From Flavipsychrobacter sp. (GTDB taxonomy: Bacteria; Bacteroidota; Bacteroidia; Chitinophagales; Chitinophagaceae): a stretch of 64,000 nucleotides of DNA. This document shows, piece after piece, positions 1,430 through 19,723 of this stretch. Numbering within the stretch: the stretch's first letter is position 1; each line of letters opens with the position of its first letter. Location of the stretch: positions 62,001 to 126,000 of the forward strand of contig JAEUVX010000015.1 in NCBI GenBank assembly GCA_016786615.1, in the 5' to 3' direction. The translations under genes and the position numbers were made by a program. The notes below the pieces were generated by a model. It searched no databases and was not told where the DNA came from. It worked only from the letters and a program-made list of their open reading frames with translations.

Positions 1430-1593
1430 CGTTTTTACAGCAATAGTTCGATTCAAAACGATTTCACCGAACAACGAGTAGATACAAGTAGTTAGAACTT
1501 AATCCGTTTGCTTGTTTTATACATCATTACCTTCCGGAAATACATCCGTTATTTTAGTTATAGCAAATCCAAATGATAGCATAATAATCTTTT

Positions 1594-1612
1594 ATGATAG
1601 TTTTACTATCAT
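1594..1612. promoter_or_regulatory. operator palindrome of the export operon (probable TetR site)
   Basis: ATGATAGT-TTT-ACTATCAT is a perfect 8-3-8 inverted repeat. A second copy with a single arm mismatch lies at 6776-6794, upstream of the tetR gene that follows this operon. It lies 41 bp before the first start codon and just upstream of a -7-like TATGTTTG (1629-1636), where bound repressor would block the promoter. A left half-site (ATGATAG) also occurs at 1573-1579. Assignment to the TetR protein is inference from the paired sites. Confidence 0.75.
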
Positions 1613-1628
1613 TTAACAATTTACACCC

Positions 1629-1636
1629 TATGTTTG
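1629..1636 (+). promoter_or_regulatory. -7 element of export operon promoter
   Basis: TATGTTTG fits the Bacteroidota TAnnTTTG consensus. It lies 17 bp before the ABC gene and 17 bp after the operator palindrome. No clean TTTG -33 box is seen; that position is taken by the operator edge. Confidence 0.55.
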
Positions 1637-1652
1637 CATTACAAACCAACAA

Positions 1653-3323
1653 ATGCAAAAGAAATCTACTAATACAATAACTAAGTTTCTGAACCTGCTG
1701 AAGTTTGAGAGGGCTGAAATATATGCCATATACATATATGCATTATTGGCAGGTATCATACAGTTGTCTTTGCCTTTAGGTATTCAGTCTATTATAAGTT
1801 TTGTATTAGGTGGTGCTATATCTACATCAATGGTTATTCTGATAATTGTTGTAATTGCAGGTGTACTTGCTGGTGGCCTTTTGAAGGTAAACCAGATGAA
1901 AATTATAGAGAAAATACAACAGCAATTATTTGTACGTTACTCTTTTCAATATGCTAATAATATTCCCAAACTCAACCTGAATGACGTAGATGATTACTAC
2001 TTGCCGGAATTAACAAACCGCTTTTTCGATACTGTAACCCTTCAAAAGGGAATTGCAAAACTTTTACTGGATGTACCTGCTGCTACTATACAGATAATAT
2101 TTGGTTTAATACTCCTATCATTCTACCATCCGGTATTTATCTTCTTCGGTATTTTATTACTATTCATTGTCTACATGATTTTGAGGATTACCGGCAATAA
2201 AGGTTTCCAAACAAGTATACAGGAAAGCGACTACAAATACCAAGTAGCGGCTCATTTACAAGAGCTATCTAGAGTTGTTAGAACATATAAATTCAGCAGA
2301 GATACACAATTACCGCTTACAAAGGCCGACAATCATGTCACCAAATATCTAAGCTCACGAACATCTCATTTCAAAATATTACTATTTCAATACTGGACAT
2401 TGATTGTTTTCAAAGTATTGGTAACCGCGGCAATGCTGATAGTTGGTGCATTTCTGTTAGTAAATCAGCAACTGAATATTGGTCAATTCATAGCAGCAGA
2501 GATAATAATCATTATGATTATTGATTCGGTAGAGAAACTGATTATTAACCTTGACAATGTTTACGATGTACTAACATCGGTTGAAAAAATCACTAAGGTT
2601 ACAGAAAAACCATTGGAAAAGAACGGTACTCTTGAAGTAACAGAGCATGGTGCATTTGCAATAAAAGCACAAAACCTAAGTTTTGGTTATTCAAATGATG
2701 CGCATGTACTCAGGAACATAAACTTCAACATCAGCGCTGGAGAAAAAATATGCCTGCAAGGTCCGTATAGCTCCGGCAAATCTTCTTTATTGAAAGTAAT
2801 AAGCGGCAGCTATAAAGATTTTGAAGGTATATTAAATGTTAATGAAATATCCATACACAACTACAATATGCACTCATTAAGAGCGCGTATAGGTATATTG
2901 CTGAACATACAAGAAATCTTTAAAGGTACATTGCATGAAAACATATGTCTCGGAGACAACTCTATTTCATACAATCATCTGGACAAAATTGCCAGTATCA
3001 CAGGCCTGAAATCATATATCGACAACCTGAAAGATGGCTATGAAACAGAACTGCAACCACTTGGCCAGCACCTTTCTTACAGAGTTATTAAAAAAATACT
3101 GTTGTGCAGGGCATTGATAAATAACCCATCGCTACTATTACTGGAAGAACCATGGATGGGGCTTGAGGATGAATATGCCGCTTCGATACAAAACTACATC
3201 CTTAACGAGTTGAAAGACACTACAGCAGTTGTGGTTACCAGAGACAGTAATTTCGCAGCTAAATGCAATCAAATATTTGTGATTGAAAACGGCGGACTGA
3301 TAACAGTACAAAACAAAAACTGA
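1653..3323 (+). CDS. ABC exporter protein with degenerate ATPase domain
   Basis: 556 aa with an N-terminal six-helix exporter-type membrane domain (about residues 20-310) and a C-terminal nucleotide-binding domain (about 335-550), the half-transporter plan of HlyB/MsbA-type proteins without a peptidase domain. Walker A is intact (GPYSSGKSS, 370-378). The other motifs are not: the ABC signature reads LSYRV (474-478) instead of LSGGQ, Walker B ends EE (498-499) instead of DE, and the H-switch position holds Arg530. ATP binding is plausible; normal hydrolysis is doubtful. It heads an operon with a HlyD-like and a TolC-like gene, so it probably forms the inner-membrane part of a tripartite exporter. 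The substrate is unknown. Confidence 0.9.
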   Translation: MQKKSTNTITKFLNLLKFERAEIYAIYIYALLAGIIQLSLPLGIQSIISFVLGGAISTSMVILIIVVIAGVLAGGLLKVNQMKIIEKIQQQLFVRYSFQYANNIPKLNLNDVDDYYLPELTNRFFDTVTLQKGIAKLLLDVPAATIQIIFGLILLSFYHPVFIFFGILLLFIVYMILRITGNKGFQTSIQESDYKYQVAAHLQELSRVVRTYKFSRDTQLPLTKADNHVTKYLSSRTSHFKILLFQYWTLIVFKVLVTAAMLIVGAFLLVNQQLNIGQFIAAEIIIIMIIDSVEKLIINLDNVYDVLTSVEKITKVTEKPLEKNGTLEVTEHGAFAIKAQNLSFGYSNDAHVLRNINFNISAGEKICLQGPYSSGKSSLLKVISGSYKDFEGILNVNEISIHNYNMHSLRARIGILLNIQEIFKGTLHENICLGDNSISYNHLDKIASITGLKSYIDNLKDGYETELQPLGQHLSYRVIKKILLCRALINNPSLLLLEEPWMGLEDEYAASIQNYILNELKDTTAVVVTRDSNFAAKCNQIFVIENGGLITVQNKN

Positions 3324-4630
3324 TGAAGGAGATAAAAGACACATTAGAAACACAAAACCCCGATATAGGGTTTAAGGCTTTTACTACTGTTTACAGGTCT
3401 GATAAACAAAGCAGAGTAAAATATTGGTTTTACATTATCCTGTTTGCACTCATCATAATAGTATTCTTGCCGTGGACACAGAATATACGCAGTAAAGGAT
3501 ACATAACTACACTAAAGCAGGAACAGCGCCCACAAGAGCTTAATTCTATCATATCTGGCAGAATAATAAAATGGTATGTAAAAGAAGGCGACTATGTAAA
3601 AGCAGGTGATACTATTGCACAACTTGGTGAGGTAAAAGATGCTTACCTGGACCCTGAACTTTTGAAACGTACTGAACAACAAATAGAAGCGAAAAAAGCG
3701 AGTATAGCATTTTACAACACAAAAATATCTGCAACTGATGCACAGTTGGGGGCTATTCAGCAGACACTGCAACTGAAGCTGAAACAACTATCAATGAAAG
3801 TCATCAGTGACAGTATGGATGTCATTGCTGCTACCAACGATATGAAAATAGCTGAAGAGCAATACCGGCGTCAACGTATTATGAGAGACAGCGGCCTGGC
3901 ATCGATGGTACAACTGGAGCAGCGAAACCAATACTACCAATCTGCACTGGCAAAGAAAACAGGTGCTGAGGTCAAATTGATGAATACGAGGATTGAACTG
4001 AATCAGGTAACACAGGAGTATGCTGAAAAGATGTTCAAAGCACAAGGTGAAAGAGCATCTGCACAAAGCGATGCTGCAACAGGTGCTGCTGAAGTTGCCA
4101 AACTCGAAAATCAGTTTTCTAACTACAAAATACGTAATGGCATGTACTTCCTCATAGCACCACAAAGCGGACAGGTGGTACAGGCAAACAAATCGGGTAT
4201 CAACGAAATACTGAAAGAAGGTGAAAAAATTGCGGAGATAGTACCTGATAAGATTGACTATGCTGTAGAACTATTTGTTCGCCCTCTAGATTTACCATTG
4301 CTATCAATAGGTCAGGAAGTGCGTTTTCTATTCGATGGTTATCCTGCCATTGTATTCAGCGGATGGCCGCAGGCATCTTATGGTACATTCAGCGGTAAGA
4401 TTGTAGCGGTAGAGAGCTCTGTTAGCAGTAACGGCCTGTTCAGAATATTAGTAGGTGAAAATACCACCTACAAACCTTGGCCTAAAAACCTGCGTATGGG
4501 TTCGGGCGCACAAGGTATAGCCCTGTTGAAGGATGTACCTATATGGTATGAACTGTGGCGGAACATCAACGGCTTCCCGCCAGACTATTATCAAACAAAC
4601 AATAAGGAGAATGACAAGGCTAAAAAATAA
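3323..4630 (+). CDS. HlyD-family periplasmic membrane fusion protein
   Basis: 435 aa. A short cytoplasmic N-terminus is followed by one membrane helix (about 34-52), a lipoyl-like half-motif (IIKWYVKEGDYVKAGDTIAQL, about 75-95), a long helical hairpin rich in Gln/Ala/Lys (about 110-265), the second lipoyl half (FLIAPQSGQVVQANKSG) and a beta-barrel domain. This is the adaptor that bridges an inner-membrane ABC protein to an outer-membrane channel. Its start overlaps the ABC stop by one base, so translation is coupled. Its end overlaps the TolC-like start. Confidence 0.9.
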   Translation: MKEIKDTLETQNPDIGFKAFTTVYRSDKQSRVKYWFYIILFALIIIVFLPWTQNIRSKGYITTLKQEQRPQELNSIISGRIIKWYVKEGDYVKAGDTIAQLGEVKDAYLDPELLKRTEQQIEAKKASIAFYNTKISATDAQLGAIQQTLQLKLKQLSMKVISDSMDVIAATNDMKIAEEQYRRQRIMRDSGLASMVQLEQRNQYYQSALAKKTGAEVKLMNTRIELNQVTQEYAEKMFKAQGERASAQSDAATGAAEVAKLENQFSNYKIRNGMYFLIAPQSGQVVQANKSGINEILKEGEKIAEIVPDKIDYAVELFVRPLDLPLLSIGQEVRFLFDGYPAIVFSGWPQASYGTFSGKIVAVESSVSSNGLFRILVGENTTYKPWPKNLRMGSGAQGIALLKDVPIWYELWRNINGFPPDYYQTNNKENDKAKK

Positions 4631-6008
4631 AATTCTTCTGCTGTTTTTATTGATTGGCTGTAGCATACAATCCTATGCAACAGATACGACCCGCTATTTA
4701 TCTAAGGACGAATTTGTAAGCATTGTAAAAGCATACCACCCTGTTGTAAGGCAGGCAGATATTGGTGTGGAAAAAGCGAAGTCGCACCTATTGAAATCAA
4801 GAGGTGTTTTTGACCCTGTTGCAGAAGCTGATTTTGACAGAAAGACATTTGACAGCAAACTTTACTATAGTTATTTCAATCCACAGATTACAGTACCTAC
4901 ATGGTATGGCATAGATGTAAAAGCAGGTGTGGAAGAAATAATAGGTGACCGGGTTTCCAGCGAATCTACATTCGGGCAAACAGGCTATGTAGGTGTTAAG
5001 CTATCATCGAACAGTTTATTTTTTGATAGCAGAAGGGCTACGCTGCAACAGGCGAAACTATTCAGGCAGCAGTCTGTAGCCGAAAGAAGGCTGATAATAA
5101 ATGATGTGATGTATGATGCCGTAAGTGCATACTGGAATTGGGTAAGAGAATACAGAAACTACAAAATCATCAGCGATGTAATAGCAGTCAACGAGGCGCG
5201 CCTGTCTTTTACGAGAACAGAATATGAACAAGGGAGCAGGCCTGCCATAGACACCACAGAAGCATTAGCCCAACTGCAGGGTTTTTATGTGCAACAGGAA
5301 GCGGCAAAACTAGCATATACCAATGCAGGGCTTTCACTATCCAACTATCTGTGGGCAGACGGTAATACACCTGTGTTATGGAACGAGTATATACTACCCG
5401 ACACAAATGACATGCAGGAAATAGCTGCACCACCGCTGAACAATTTGCTGACACTTGTAGACAGGCATCCTAAAATAGAAGTACTGGCATCGAAGATTGA
5501 TATACTGAAGGTTGACAAGAAATTGAAACAACAATACTTTATACCTAAACTGTCTGTAAGTGCAAACATGTTGGGCAAAGGATACAACACAGACTTTACA
5601 CTCAGCCAGAGCTTTTTGGAGAACAATCATAAATTGGGTGCTACACTGAACATACCACTCTTTTACAGAGATGCGATAGGTGGGTTCAGAATGGCGAAAC
5701 TGAAAGTTGCTGAGACGGAACTGGAGCAAACCAATCAACTACTACAAATTGAAAATAAGGTACGCAGTTATTACAACGAAGTATTGGCTATCCAAAAGCA
5801 AATAGAGATTTATACCGAAGTATACAAAAACAATCAAAAGCTTTTCTTTGGTGAGCAGTTTCGTTTCAATAACGGAGAAAGCTCTTTGTTCATCCTCAAC
5901 TCCAGAGAAAACAAACTATTAGAGACTTCTCTCAAACTCCTTGAGTTGAAAATGAAACTCCAAAAATCTTACATAGGATTACTTTGGGCTGCAGGCCAAC
6001 TCAGTTAA
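4611..6008 (+). CDS. TolC-like outer membrane efflux protein
   Basis: 465 aa, starting at ATG 4611 (MTRLKNKILLLFL...), chosen because AAGGAG precedes it by 4 bases and it opens a signal peptide ending near SYATDT. An in-frame ATG at 4533 would place 26 extra hydrophilic residues before the signal and is rejected. The mature protein has the two long helical repeats of TolC family channels (for example ASKIDILKVDKKLKQQYF and ETSLKLLELKMKLQKSY). It overlaps the HlyD-like gene by 20 bp and completes a three-component export system. It converges with the TetR gene, whose stop directly follows. Confidence 0.88.
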   Translation: MTRLKNKILLLFLLIGCSIQSYATDTTRYLSKDEFVSIVKAYHPVVRQADIGVEKAKSHLLKSRGVFDPVAEADFDRKTFDSKLYYSYFNPQITVPTWYGIDVKAGVEEIIGDRVSSESTFGQTGYVGVKLSSNSLFFDSRRATLQQAKLFRQQSVAERRLIINDVMYDAVSAYWNWVREYRNYKIISDVIAVNEARLSFTRTEYEQGSRPAIDTTEALAQLQGFYVQQEAAKLAYTNAGLSLSNYLWADGNTPVLWNEYILPDTNDMQEIAAPPLNNLLTLVDRHPKIEVLASKIDILKVDKKLKQQYFIPKLSVSANMLGKGYNTDFTLSQSFLENNHKLGATLNIPLFYRDAIGGFRMAKLKVAETELEQTNQLLQIENKVRSYYNEVLAIQKQIEIYTEVYKNNQKLFFGEQFRFNNGESSLFILNSRENKLLETSLKLLELKMKLQKSYIGLLWAAGQLS

Positions 6009-6698
6009 TTATTTTTTCTTAACCGCTGTATCGAGAGTGCTGTATACTATATGATTAAGATATTTAGTCAATAGTACTACATCTTTAGCATTACCAAAAT
6101 CTGTAAGTCGGGGTAGATTGTCTTTAAAATACATTTGATGGTGTGCTGTTTCTATCAACGTACTTGCAAGTGAATGTGGAAACTGAAAACCGGATTTATA
6201 CTCCAAAAATATTTCAGCTATACGATGGCATAAGTCTTTGTATGGCTTGAACAGCATAGACTTATTGTCTTCTGTTACGTGCTTTGTAAGGTAAGATTTA
6301 TTGCCCTCTGCAATTACAATATGGTGCAGTATATCTTTATTAATGTGCTCTAAAAAAAACTGATCTTTTTCCTGAAATGTCAACAGGTTTATTATTGTGC
6401 TTATTTTTTGTTTGCTATCCTTCAGATTATTGGTATGAAATATCAACTGATATTCCATCCACGTCCAAAACCAGGTAGTGATATACGTAAGCAGACGATG
6501 TTTATTCTCAAAATAACGATATATACTTGCCTCAGTAGTACCGACCTTTTGAGCAAGTTTTTTGAATGTAAAATCTTCGAAGCCTATTTCATGAATCATT
6601 AATATACTATACTTAATGATATTCTTTCCGAGCTCTGATGTTTCAGGGTCTCTGACAAAGAGATTAGGATTCATTTTTATCTGCAATTGTAATTCCAT
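6009..6698 (-). CDS. TetR/AcrR-family transcriptional regulator
   Basis: 229 aa from ATG 6698 (MELQLQIKMNPNLFVRDPET). The N-terminal domain has the TetR helix-turn-helix (FTFKKLAQKVGTTEASIYRYFENK); the C-terminal part is the variable ligand domain. An upstream in-frame start at 6806 would add a hydrophobic leader and run through the operator, so it is rejected. The gene converges on the exporter operon and has a 19-bp palindrome 78 bp upstream that almost repeats the one before the exporter. Autoregulation and repression of the exporter are the simplest reading. A -7 candidate TAATTTTG lies at 6727-6720. Confidence 0.88.
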   Translation of the reverse strand: MELQLQIKMNPNLFVRDPETSELGKNIIKYSILMIHEIGFEDFTFKKLAQKVGTTEASIYRYFENKHRLLTYITTWFWTWMEYQLIFHTNNLKDSKQKISTIINLLTFQEKDQFFLEHINKDILHHIVIAEGNKSYLTKHVTEDNKSMLFKPYKDLCHRIAEIFLEYKSGFQFPHSLASTLIETAHHQMYFKDNLPRLTDFGNAKDVVLLTKYLNHIVYSTLDTAVKKK

Positions 6699-6775
6699 AT
6701 TACCAAATTGAGGCAATAGCAAAATTAACACTTGTAGGTCAGTAGTAAATATAAACAAAACAAATACTCCAATAA

Positions 6776-6794
6776 ATAATAGTATAACTATCAT
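6776..6794. promoter_or_regulatory. second operator palindrome, between tetR and purK
   Basis: Plus strand ATAATAGT-ATA-ACTATCAT; read on the minus strand it is ATGATAGT-TAT-ACTATTAT. It differs from the 1594-1612 site at one arm base and one spacer base, with the same 8-3-8 layout. It sits between the divergent tetR and purK genes and also covers the position expected for the purK -33 box. Confidence 0.72.
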
Positions 6795-6809: not shown

Positions 6810-6817
6810 TATATTTG
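6810..6817 (+). promoter_or_regulatory. -7 element of purKE promoter
   Basis: TATATTTG matches TAnnTTTG and lies 14 bp before the purK ATG, giving a very short leader. The -33 region would fall at about 6787-6790, inside the palindrome. Confidence 0.5.
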
Positions 6818-6831
6818 CGAAAAATATATCG

Positions 6832-7971
6832 ATGAGAGAAGGGCTAAAAGTCGGGATACTGGGAGGTGGACAGCTTGGAGCTATGCTTATAAGACATGCT
6901 ATTGACTACGGGCTAAACGTGTCTGTATTAGATCAAGACCCTGCATCACCATGTGCCAGATATTCGAGTTCATTTAAAGTAGGCGACCCGATGAGTTATG
7001 ATGATGTCATATCTTTTGGTAGCAAACTTGATGTCATTACAATTGAAAAAGAGGCAGTAAATACTCAGGCATTGAGAGAGCTTGCGAAAGCAGGTATTAA
7101 AGTATACCCTTCGCCAGATGTTATAGAGCTTATTCAGGATAAATACACACAGAAGAAATACTTAGAAGATAAGGGAATTGCAGTACCTCATTTAATTCAG
7201 ATCAATAATAAATCTGAGTTGGAACATCATACAGAAATGCTACCTGCTTGCCTCAAAAAATGTAAAAATGGTTATGACGGTAAGGGCGTAATGATGCTAT
7301 ATAACCCGACAGACATAAATAATGCTTTTGATGAACCGTGTATTCTTGAAGAATTAGTTGATATTAAGCATGAAATCTCAGTAATTGTGTGTAGGGATGC
7401 AGCAGGAGCCGTAATATGTTACGACCCGGTAATGATGGTTTTCAATAGCCAACATATGGTGCTCGACTATCAGCTTTGCCCAGCAAACATATCAGAAAAA
7501 AAAGCAACAGAAGCCATCAATCTGGCTATTAAAACGGCAGAAGCGATCAATATAGTGGGCATTCTTGCGGTAGAGATGTTCCTCACAAGTGATGATTTAC
7601 TGCTTGTAAATGAGCTTGCACCAAGGCCACACAATAGCGGACATCATACGATAGAATCATGCACTACTTCTCAGTACGAGCAACTATTGCGTATATTAGT
7701 TGGCATGCCGCTGGGAGATACAAAATTGAAAAAAAGCAGTGTGATGATAAACGTGTTTGAACCAGCTGCAAACAAGAAGAACAGTATTGAAGACGCTATG
7801 AAAGCAATACTGAAAACATCTGATGTACATTTACACTGGTATGGAAAAAGTAGCGGGAAAGCTGGCAGAAAGATGGGGCATATTACGATAACAGAAGACA
7901 CAGTAGAGAATGCAATTACAAAAGCAACAATAATTCGCAACATATTAAAAGACTCATATGGCCAAGAATAA
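6832..7971 (+). CDS. purK: N5-carboxyaminoimidazole ribonucleotide synthase
   Basis: 379 aa ATP-grasp enzyme of purine synthesis that carboxylates AIR to N5-CAIR using ATP and bicarbonate. The N-terminus has the dinucleotide-like VGILGGGQLGAMLIRHA motif typical of PurK; the ATP-grasp centre includes KKCKNGYDGKGVM and the metal/ATP residues in LLLVNELAPRPHNSGHHT. Length is normal for the family. It overlaps purE by 14 bp, so the two consecutive pathway steps are translationally coupled. Confidence 0.96.
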   Translation: MREGLKVGILGGGQLGAMLIRHAIDYGLNVSVLDQDPASPCARYSSSFKVGDPMSYDDVISFGSKLDVITIEKEAVNTQALRELAKAGIKVYPSPDVIELIQDKYTQKKYLEDKGIAVPHLIQINNKSELEHHTEMLPACLKKCKNGYDGKGVMMLYNPTDINNAFDEPCILEELVDIKHEISVIVCRDAAGAVICYDPVMMVFNSQHMVLDYQLCPANISEKKATEAINLAIKTAEAINIVGILAVEMFLTSDDLLLVNELAPRPHNSGHHTIESCTTSQYEQLLRILVGMPLGDTKLKKSSVMINVFEPAANKKNSIEDAMKAILKTSDVHLHWYGKSSGKAGRKMGHITITEDTVENAITKATIIRNILKDSYGQE

Positions 7972-8461
7972 AGTAGCTGTAATTATGGGCAGCATATCAG
8001 ATGCTGATATTATGCAGAAAGCAGTAAGTGTGCTTGAGCAATATAAAATAGACTACGAGTTTATGGTAGTATCAGCCCACCGCAGCCCCGATTGGATGTA
8101 TAAATATGCATCTGAGGCTGATAAGAAAAATATTAAAGTAATAATAGCTGGTGCGGGTGGAGCGGCTCATTTACCAGGCATGATGGCAGCACTTACTACA
8201 ATACCAGTAATAGGTGTCCCTATTAAATCCTCCAATTCTTTAGATGGATGGGACTCCTTGTTATCAATAGCCCAGATGCCTAATGATATTCCCGTAGCAA
8301 CGGTAGCTGTTAATGGTTCTCACAATGCCGGTGTGCTGGCAGTAGAAATATTAGCTATCGGTGATAGTAAATTAAAGAAAATGCTGGCTGAGACTAAGAA
8401 GGAAAACAACCTGAAAGTGCAAAAACAAAATGAAGAATTGAAACAAAGAAGAAAACAATAA
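7958..8461 (+). CDS. purE: N5-CAIR mutase, catalytic subunit
   Basis: 167 aa. It converts N5-CAIR to CAIR. Family motifs visible: VIMGSISDADIMQKA at the N-terminus, VSAHRSP (catalytic His region), AGAGGAAHLPGMMAA, and MPNDIPVATVAVNGSHNAG. Typical class I PurE length. A charged Lys/Gln-rich tail (KENNLKVQKQNEELKQRRKQ) is common in the phylum. The start lies inside the 3' end of purK. Confidence 0.96.
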   Translation: MAKNKVAVIMGSISDADIMQKAVSVLEQYKIDYEFMVVSAHRSPDWMYKYASEADKKNIKVIIAGAGGAAHLPGMMAALTTIPVIGVPIKSSNSLDGWDSLLSIAQMPNDIPVATVAVNGSHNAGVLAVEILAIGDSKLKKMLAETKKENNLKVQKQNEELKQRRKQ

Positions 8462-19180: not shown

Positions 19181-19723
19181 TTAACTATAATAAGGAGAAA
19201 TCATCAGATAAACGATAACACCTGTCACACTCACGTAGAGCCACAAAGGCCAAGTATAACGTGCTAGTTTTTTATGCTTTTCGTACTCACCGGTTAACGA
19301 ACGATAAGCAGTAAATAGTATAAATGGCAATATCACTGCAGCCAAAAAGATATGCGTTATCAGTATAATAAAATACACAAGCCTTATCGTGCCTTCACCA
19401 CCAAATTTAGTATCACCAGACAACAAGTGATGTGCAATATATGATACAAGAAATAATACCGATAGCACTATAGCAGACATCATGATGTTTTTATGCCTTA
19501 CATAGTTTTTTTGTTTAACAGCCATTAAGCCTGCAACTAACAATATCGATACAGTGGAATTTATTATCGCATTAATCAGCGCAAAAATATGGATATCAAA
19601 ACCAAGGTCAGCTTCTAATTTCACCCTTGATAGTATTACTACCGCTGCAAATACTACAAAAGATACTGTAAGTATCAGCAACCTTGCCTGTTTATCATTC
19701 TTCTTAAGTACGGGAGTCAGCAT
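19181..19723 (-). CDS. DUF420 membrane protein (oxidase assembly)
   Basis: 180 aa with five predicted membrane helices. The motif IAHHLLSGDTKFGG and the His in FIILITHIFLAA are typical of DUF420 (CtaM-like) proteins, which accompany haem-copper oxidase genes and are linked to oxidase maturation. It lies 8 bp after the SCO1 gene. Confidence 0.85.
   Translation of the reverse strand: MLTPVLKKNDKQARLLILTVSFVVFAAVVILSRVKLEADLGFDIHIFALINAIINSTVSILLVAGLMAVKQKNYVRHKNIMMSAIVLSVLFLVSYIAHHLLSGDTKFGGEGTIRLVYFIILITHIFLAAVILPFILFTAYRSLTGEYEKHKKLARYTWPLWLYVSVTGVIVYLMISPYYS

Follow-up and report, generated by a model that had tools for sequence, protein, structure and literature searches.

A TetR-family regulator, its predicted palindromic operators and a probable bicarbonate regulon in Flavipsychrobacter and its relatives

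The window analyzed here is a stretch of 64,000 nucleotides from Flavipsychrobacter sp. (assembly GCA_016786615.1, contig JAEUVX010000015.1, positions 62,001 to 126,000), which harbors an operon for an ABC/HlyD/TolC export-type machine, a gene for a TetR-family regulator (tetR) and the purine genes purK and purE. Two 19-base-pair (bp) palindromes, at 1594-1612 and 6776-6794, are very probably the operators of the TetR protein that is encoded between them. The regulator probably represses an inorganic-carbon regulon that comprises genes for the supply and the use of bicarbonate. In other bacteria the same regulator and site are found next to genes for the import, interconversion or use of bicarbonate, which makes a CO2/bicarbonate circuit likelier than a self-contained exporter switch. 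A TetR dimer, or neighboring dimers, would repress the target promoters by occupying their −33 region. When inorganic carbon is short, some signal would free TetR from the DNA, and bicarbonate transporters, carbonic anhydrase (CA) and bicarbonate-using enzymes would be made. The units controlled in this genome would be the ABC/HlyD/TolC operon, purKE and perhaps tetR itself.

Two predicted operators around tetR

The predicted main exporter operator (1594-1612, plus strand) reads ATGATAGT-TTT-ACTATCAT, a perfect 8-3-8 palindrome that scores 25.3 bits with a matrix built without this site. The second site (6776-6794, plus strand), ATAATAGT-ATA-ACTATCAT, is paired at seven of eight arm positions, scores 24.8 bits and is predicted to be shared by the divergent tetR and purK genes. 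Re-examination of the window sequence found both palindromes as the initial annotation had described them. The difference of one arm base and one spacer base that it gave holds when the sites are read on opposite strands; a same-strand reading gives two spacer differences. Its placement of one site before the exporter operon and the other before tetR at the far end agrees with the coordinates: ABC, HlyD and TolC lie together in one operon by Pfam (1653-6008), and the center of the second site is located 87 bp upstream of the tetR start (6698). A degenerate operator copy (1573-1591, plus strand) lies 21 bp, that is, two helical turns, 5′ of the main operator, and its left arm, ATGATAGC, is retained in two relatives (L036 and L037; L numbers denote loci, G numbers genomes with G000 as the own genome, and C numbers contigs of a genome).

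The pattern ATRATAGTNNNACTATYAT matches exactly at the two sites and nowhere else, whether the window or the whole own genome (2.96 Mb) is searched. With up to three mismatches, the window contains five matches against 2.69 expected, and five are reached in 12 of 100 shuffles. In the own genome the motif occurs 3 times with up to one mismatch and 9 times with up to two, against 2 and 24 for a backwards control. Because this control is equally rich, match counting within the own genome is weak as proof and was rejected as such; the case for operators rests on position and conservation, not on the number of matches. Two further matches were set aside. The one-mismatch match at G000:C14:334298 falls where a metallo-beta-lactamase-like open reading frame (ORF, L003) has its start codon, and the letters of the match recur in G007, G009, G010 and G014, so that coding conservation is the probable cause. 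The 18.4-bit match at window positions 19627-19645 lies inside a minus-strand ORF (19181-19723) and is probably due to chance.

Orthologues of tetR were collected from 59 genomes including the own one (17 long matches in 16 other genomes plus two fragments) and from GTDB contigs (the best 80 of 150). After removal of five duplicates, 95 distinct loci remained, 94 besides the window; as these are related by descent, the counts below do not stand for 94 independent events. A site with at most three mismatches is present within 400 bp 5′ of tetR in 81 of the 94 other loci, compared to 6 of 94 in reversed sequence, and the count is an independent test because the pattern was derived from the window alone. 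A matrix trained on 79 tetR-upstream sites, none of them from the window or from its two 97% relatives, reaches 10 bits or more upstream of tetR in 84 of 94 loci (3 reversed). The ten loci below 10 bits are L036, L037, L050, L053, L054, L064, L066, L080, L094, and L123; in two of them, L053 and L054, tetR is a fragment. The site also appears in beta- and gammaproteobacteria and on one Bdellovibrionales contig (L099, L103, L105-L108). Among the loci gathered here, the TetR clade is mainly found in Bacteroidota, with a few Proteobacteria and the one Bdellovibrionales contig. Its predicted operator is close to ATRATAGTAWTACTATYAT and often has weaker copies at a distance of 21 bp, which places them on the same face of the DNA; around the 113 strong sites described further below, weak copies at ±21 bp exceed those at all other offsets.

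The presence of the site follows that of an intact tetR. In G014 (L054), the exporter and purKE are kept, tetR is a fragment, and both sites are gone (best promoter scores of 1.4 and −3.1 bits). Among the exporters that lie away from tetR in genomes with tetR, four of five have a site above 10 bits (G056 23.9, G046 13.3, G048 11.6, G051 10.9, and G007 −4.3 bits), compared to none of 11 exporters without an intact tetR; the ten exporters of genomes lacking tetR reach 3.3 bits at best. The null for these scores, 600 reversed windows, has its 95% level at 4.5 and its maximum at 12.8 bits. Exporters without the site, apart from that of G007, are those that lack an intact tetR. In G009, sites are present with no tetR match, and the exporter is broken off by a contig end, so that tetR may sit in the gap. 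With one mismatch allowed, ATRATAGTAWTACTATYAT matches 18 times in 17 of the 24 tetR genomes (approximately 130 Mb; backwards pattern, one match). By contig coordinates 16 of the 18 are the tetR site, the other two being located at G063 C3 and G080 C4, and the motif is accordingly not scattered over many unrelated loci. Conservation, the loss in G014 and the exporters away from tetR support the proposal of the initial annotation that a single regulator would serve both sites and is tied to the exporter.

The regulator (6009-6698, minus strand, 229 aa) has its start set at 6698, the residue from which the orthologues align. It contains a TetR_N domain (PF00440, 32.7 bits at a cut-off of 24), and its AlphaFold2 model (mean pLDDT 93.7) predicts ten helices in an all-helical fold, with a helix-turn-helix ahead of a helical ligand domain, as in the TetR family. 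The sequence matches to nine solved chains (E values of 7e-9 to 8e-6) are confined to profile positions 16-126 of 222, and no NCBIfam model listed for the protein reaches its cut-off.

Promoter geometry and direction of control

The Bacteroidota-type −7 box of the exporter operon, TATGTTTG (1629-1636, plus strand), is located 26 bp from the operator center, and that of purK, TATATTTG (6810-6817, plus strand), 25 bp. A tRNA-Arg (CCT) gene at 1316-1388 lies just 5′ of the exporter promoter. The purK promoter lacks a TTG −33 element and carries an operator arm in that place, in line with the initial annotation, which had put the second site over the likely −33 box of purK. The arrangement recurs in relatives when the first TAnnTTTG within 120 bp of the operator center is scored as the box. 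It precedes 27 of 30 ABC genes (24 at 25-28 bp), 14 of 15 purK genes (11 at 24-25 bp), all three isocitrate dehydrogenase (ICDH) genes (at 25 bp), three of five sbtA genes and six of six genes in which a transmembrane (TM) ABC half is fused to HlyD (five at 25 bp), compared to 9 of 113 shuffled sequences. The promoters of tetR itself show the box in 53 of 77 cases, 33 of these at 57-59 or 32-35 bp. In five proteobacterial SulP promoters (L099, L103, L105, L106, and L107), inspection by eye places the arm TACTAT 17-18 bp after TTTACA and hence in the position of the −10 element; L108 does not show the TTTACA-TACTAT arrangement.

An operator over the −33 region in Bacteroidota or over the −10 element in Proteobacteria points to repression, which would be the simplest explanation of both placements. 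Activation, with TetR substituting for −33 recognition and switching its targets on, had first been suggested by the fixed spacing and was set back, not decisively, after the proteobacterial promoters were considered. An activator would also account for a tight spacing in the absence of a −33 element: in most ABC, PurK and ICDH promoters, 24-28 bp separate the −7 box from the operator center, and TTG occurs at −33 in none of 59 promoters, compared to 27 of 166 other genes (shuffled, 10). However, a box at 22-30 bp was the criterion by which these 59 had been selected, and the operator letters themselves preclude TTG there. The place of the operator behind TTTACA in the five SulP promoters suits a repressor, and most TetR proteins act as repressors. 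Activation is considered unlikely.

Bicarbonate genes behind the operator

In relatives, the operator fronts SulP/CA, SbtA, bestrophin, purKE, carB-accBC and ICDH-purKE arrays. The 1.50 Mb of the 95 loci contain 113 sites of at least 17 bits, 81 upstream of tetR and 32 elsewhere; since only tetR-upstream sites were used to train the matrix, the 32 lie outside the training. Twenty of them precede ABC genes, three ICDH-purKE, three SulP, two SbtA and two purK, one is found before a large surface-protein gene (L039) and one inside an ORF. Across the 81 tetR operators, the divergent gene is SulP in 15 cases, purK in 13, ABC in 10, a TM-HlyD fusion in 6, CutA1 followed by a fusion in 3, SbtA in 3, CA in 2, carB in 2 (approximately 230 bp off), DedA in 2, a Zn-ribbon gene in 1 and others in 6, with none within 250 bp in 18. 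ORF clustering around tetR combined with Pfam gives neighbor counts that are lower bounds because the locus stretches differ in length: among the 95 loci there are at least 26 with PurK, 26 with PurE, 22 with beta-CA, 20 with SulP, 14 with SbtA, 13 with DUF6671, 11 with TsaC/Sua5, 8 with ICDH, 6 with an NhaD-like protein, 4 + 4 with TerC and 3 with a DedA-like protein.

Several loci show genes for the supply or use of bicarbonate at the operator. CarB and TsaC both use bicarbonate. The tetR gene is divergent from carB-accB-accC in L091 and L092 and from a bestrophin gene followed by CA in L096. In G002, G006 and G009, the array purK-ICDH-DUF6671-tsaC lies behind an operator of its own; sbtA and the exporter are each preceded by a further one. 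A purK or ICDH-purKE unit apart from tetR on the same stretch has its own site in L058, L059, L063, L064 and L069, as do the second purK copies of G002 and G006 and the purK of G009. In G056, an exporter operator (L198, 566-584) lies between the exporter and an acyl-CoA carboxylase gene (Carboxyl_trans), which is divergent and 187 bp from the operator. The operator is also kept at tetR loci in whose vicinity no exporter was found, namely in Chitinophaga (L075-L079), methanotrophs (L106 and L107) and Nitrotoga (L099). The "self-contained" exporter system of the initial annotation is contradicted by operators before bicarbonate transporters, CA and carboxylases, and by their retention at these loci. 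According to passages of one study, SbtA and SulP transporters carry bicarbonate, CA and a bicarbonate transporter can stand in for each other, and bicarbonate is used by acetyl-CoA carboxylase and in purine carboxylation (PMC6689103).

The bicarbonate user of the window is PurK, 5-(carboxyamino)imidazole ribonucleotide synthase (6832-7971, plus strand; NCBIfam PRK06019.1-5 and TIGR01161 above cut-off), which is followed by PurE, the mutase for the PurK product (7958-8461, plus strand; TIGR01162 above cut-off). Pfam recognizes ATP-grasp/PurK_C and AIRC in the two products. The suggestion that purine synthesis is drawn into the circuit stands for the group of the window, in which purK and ICDH-purKE units have their own sites, but not for the whole order. 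None of nine purK genes away from tetR in genomes with tetR exceeds 10 bits (best 5.1, one above the null 95% level), and purK as a universal target was therefore rejected.

In a quick tree of TetR with 92 rows, linkage to the exporter changes at least 12 times and linkage to carbon genes at least 17 times. The labels of this tree denote presence in the fetched stretch, some exporter labels are based on distant ABC proteins, and several long branches meet. The changes suggest that one partner module replaces another behind an operator that is retained.

Other neighbors of tetR and of the operator include a DUF6671 protein (L062, 508-1365, and 12 other tetR loci), which adjoins tsaC in several loci and is a candidate member of the bicarbonate theme. 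Third kinds of partner are Zn-ribbon, DedA-like and TerC genes that lie divergent from tetR across the operator in L041, L111 and L125. Far from tetR, a 25.8-bit operator lies 33 bp before a secreted fn3/Por_Secre_tail protein in G002 (L182, 5408-7111) and G009 (L184, 3442-5145), and a 26.4-bit site in G056 (L191, 2503-2521) 33 bp before a gene for an ECF sigma factor. The 28.5-bit operator in L039 (6021-6039) precedes a very large surface-protein-like gene that adjoins purE; the first 998 residues of its product have no Pfam match.

A number of observations weigh against a bicarbonate regulon under the control of TetR. The SulP-CA pair of the own genome (C14) and its second CA (C7) lack the operator, and no SbtA relative was found there in a search without a positive control, so that the local bicarbonate theme rests on purKE alone. 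The exporter is the only module in view in 33 of 92 tetR rows, and the TAnnTTTG box is found in only 3 of 16 SulP targets. The two 97% relatives of the window score 8.5 bits and belong to the ten loci below 10 bits. Three of the four exporter sites away from tetR score close to the null maximum or less than it, which leaves G056 alone far outside the null. The tetR of G048 is a contig-end fragment, and G007 has tetR plus a 56% exporter relative elsewhere that lacks the operator. The 21 purK genes of genomes without tetR reach 5.8 bits at best and so do not differ from those away from tetR in genomes that have it.

From the gene content we infer that the signal would be CO2 or bicarbonate. Alkaline pH or sodium could take its place, with the bicarbonate genes as part of a pH response, and genes for TerC (eight loci in two clusters), DedA-like proteins with a VTT domain (three) and NhaD-like CitMHS proteins (six) near tetR would agree with this. 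PurK, CarB, AccBC, TsaC and acyl-CoA carboxylase at operators are bicarbonate users, however, and not pH devices; such a signal is rated as improbable.

The export-type machine and known systems

The ABC exporter subunit (1653-3323, plus strand; PF00664 and PF00005) consists of a TM and a nucleotide-binding domain. It is followed by a HlyD-type periplasmic adaptor (3323-4630, plus strand; PF13437 (HlyD_3) and PF13533) and a TolC-type outer-membrane protein (4611-6008, plus strand; PF02321 (OEP)). Motif alignment shows that the signature and H-loop of the subunit are degenerate and depart from the canonical ATPase motifs. The alignment contained 41 ABC rows, including two window duplicates, the unrelated canonical ABC protein of L108 (22%) and 37 other related rows. 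LSGGQ is absent from the window protein and all 37 related rows; the aligned H-loop histidine is retained in one (L088) and lost in the other 36 and in the window.

Ten loci (L112-L117, L119, L121, L124, and L127) go further and encode the ABC membrane half and HlyD in a single ORF of 744-836 aa (for example L116, 6638-8881, minus strand), with TM limits set by tblastn against the window protein. Walker A is absent from all ten fusions, for which an ATPase encoded elsewhere was not searched. Six of six fusions scanned contain HlyD domains and a weak ABC_membrane match, with no ABC_tran at E values up to 1. A CutA1-like gene is inserted between operator and fusion in L112, L124 and L127; the other fusions lie behind the operator. 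Among the matches listed, no open-access paper with the phrase "degenerate nucleotide-binding" was found.

These features bear on a further alternative, an ordinary local efflux repressor that governs the exporter and itself and senses the cargo, with purK and the carbon genes as accidental neighbors. A TetR gene beside an efflux operon is the usual arrangement, and the rows with the exporter alone nearby and the operator-free SulP-CA pair of the own genome fit it as well. Such a repressor leaves unaccounted for the operators away from tetR before purK, ICDH-purKE, SbtA and SulP, the loci with operator and bicarbonate genes in which no exporter was found (L075-L079, L093, L094, L106, and L107), and an exporter that, by its degenerate motifs or missing domain, would lack a working ATPase. 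It is rated as unlikely, somewhat below activation or a pH signal. The reading of the palindromes as AT-rich inverted repeats that arose by chance, or as what is left of terminators, can practically be dismissed: AT-rich palindromes are common at two mismatches, as the backwards controls illustrate, but the excess upstream of tetR (81 versus 6 of 94) and the loss of the sites along with tetR in G014 speak against it.

The predicted bicarbonate regulator shares with TetR/AcrR-type efflux repressors the TetR_N domain, a palindromic operator over the promoter and a position beside an export-type operon. It differs in that the operator also serves bicarbonate transport, CA and carboxylase genes in relatives. 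The cyanobacterial CCM regulators CcmR/NdhR and CmpR (compare PMC3401165) belong to another protein family (LysR), use other operators and act in autotrophs; like the system proposed here, they govern inorganic-carbon uptake genes. Staphylococcus with MpsAB is likewise a non-autotroph, whose acetyl-CoA carboxylase and purine synthesis depend on bicarbonate and in which transporter and CA are interchangeable; the transporter differs, and a TetR circuit is not among what is stated in the relevant passages (PMC6689103). The type I secretion proteins LssB (TIGR03375, E value of 6.7e-52) and PrtD (TIGR01842, 3.9e-48) are the best profile matches of the window ABC subunit, which stays far below their cut-offs (176.7 of 693.1 and 164.3 of 510.15 bits). 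In contrast to both, LSGGQ and the H-loop histidine are lost here, and the ten fusion loci lack the nucleotide-binding domain. No TetR-type regulator of bicarbonate genes was found in the open-access literature searched, and one may exist in print elsewhere.

A wider reading is put forward tentatively. In many heterotrophic Bacteroidota, and in some methanotrophs and nitrifiers, this undescribed TetR may act as a general switch of the bicarbonate economy, joining supply to spenders (PurK, CarB, AccBC, and TsaC). The ABC-derived HlyD/TolC machine under its control may have abandoned ATP hydrolysis, with a degenerate ATPase here and none in the ten fusion loci, and may work as a trans-envelope conduit in the response to carbon rather than in the export of drugs. 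In our judgement, it is poorly understood how heterotrophs sense their bicarbonate supply and protect it. If the proposed regulon is correct, an unnamed TetR clade would gain a function, and purine synthesis would be linked to CO2 status. The same operator on an ABC-derived machine with a degenerate or missing ATPase would raise the question of how this machine is powered. With one regulator, one operator and both suppliers and users of bicarbonate as targets, the small regulon would be directly testable.

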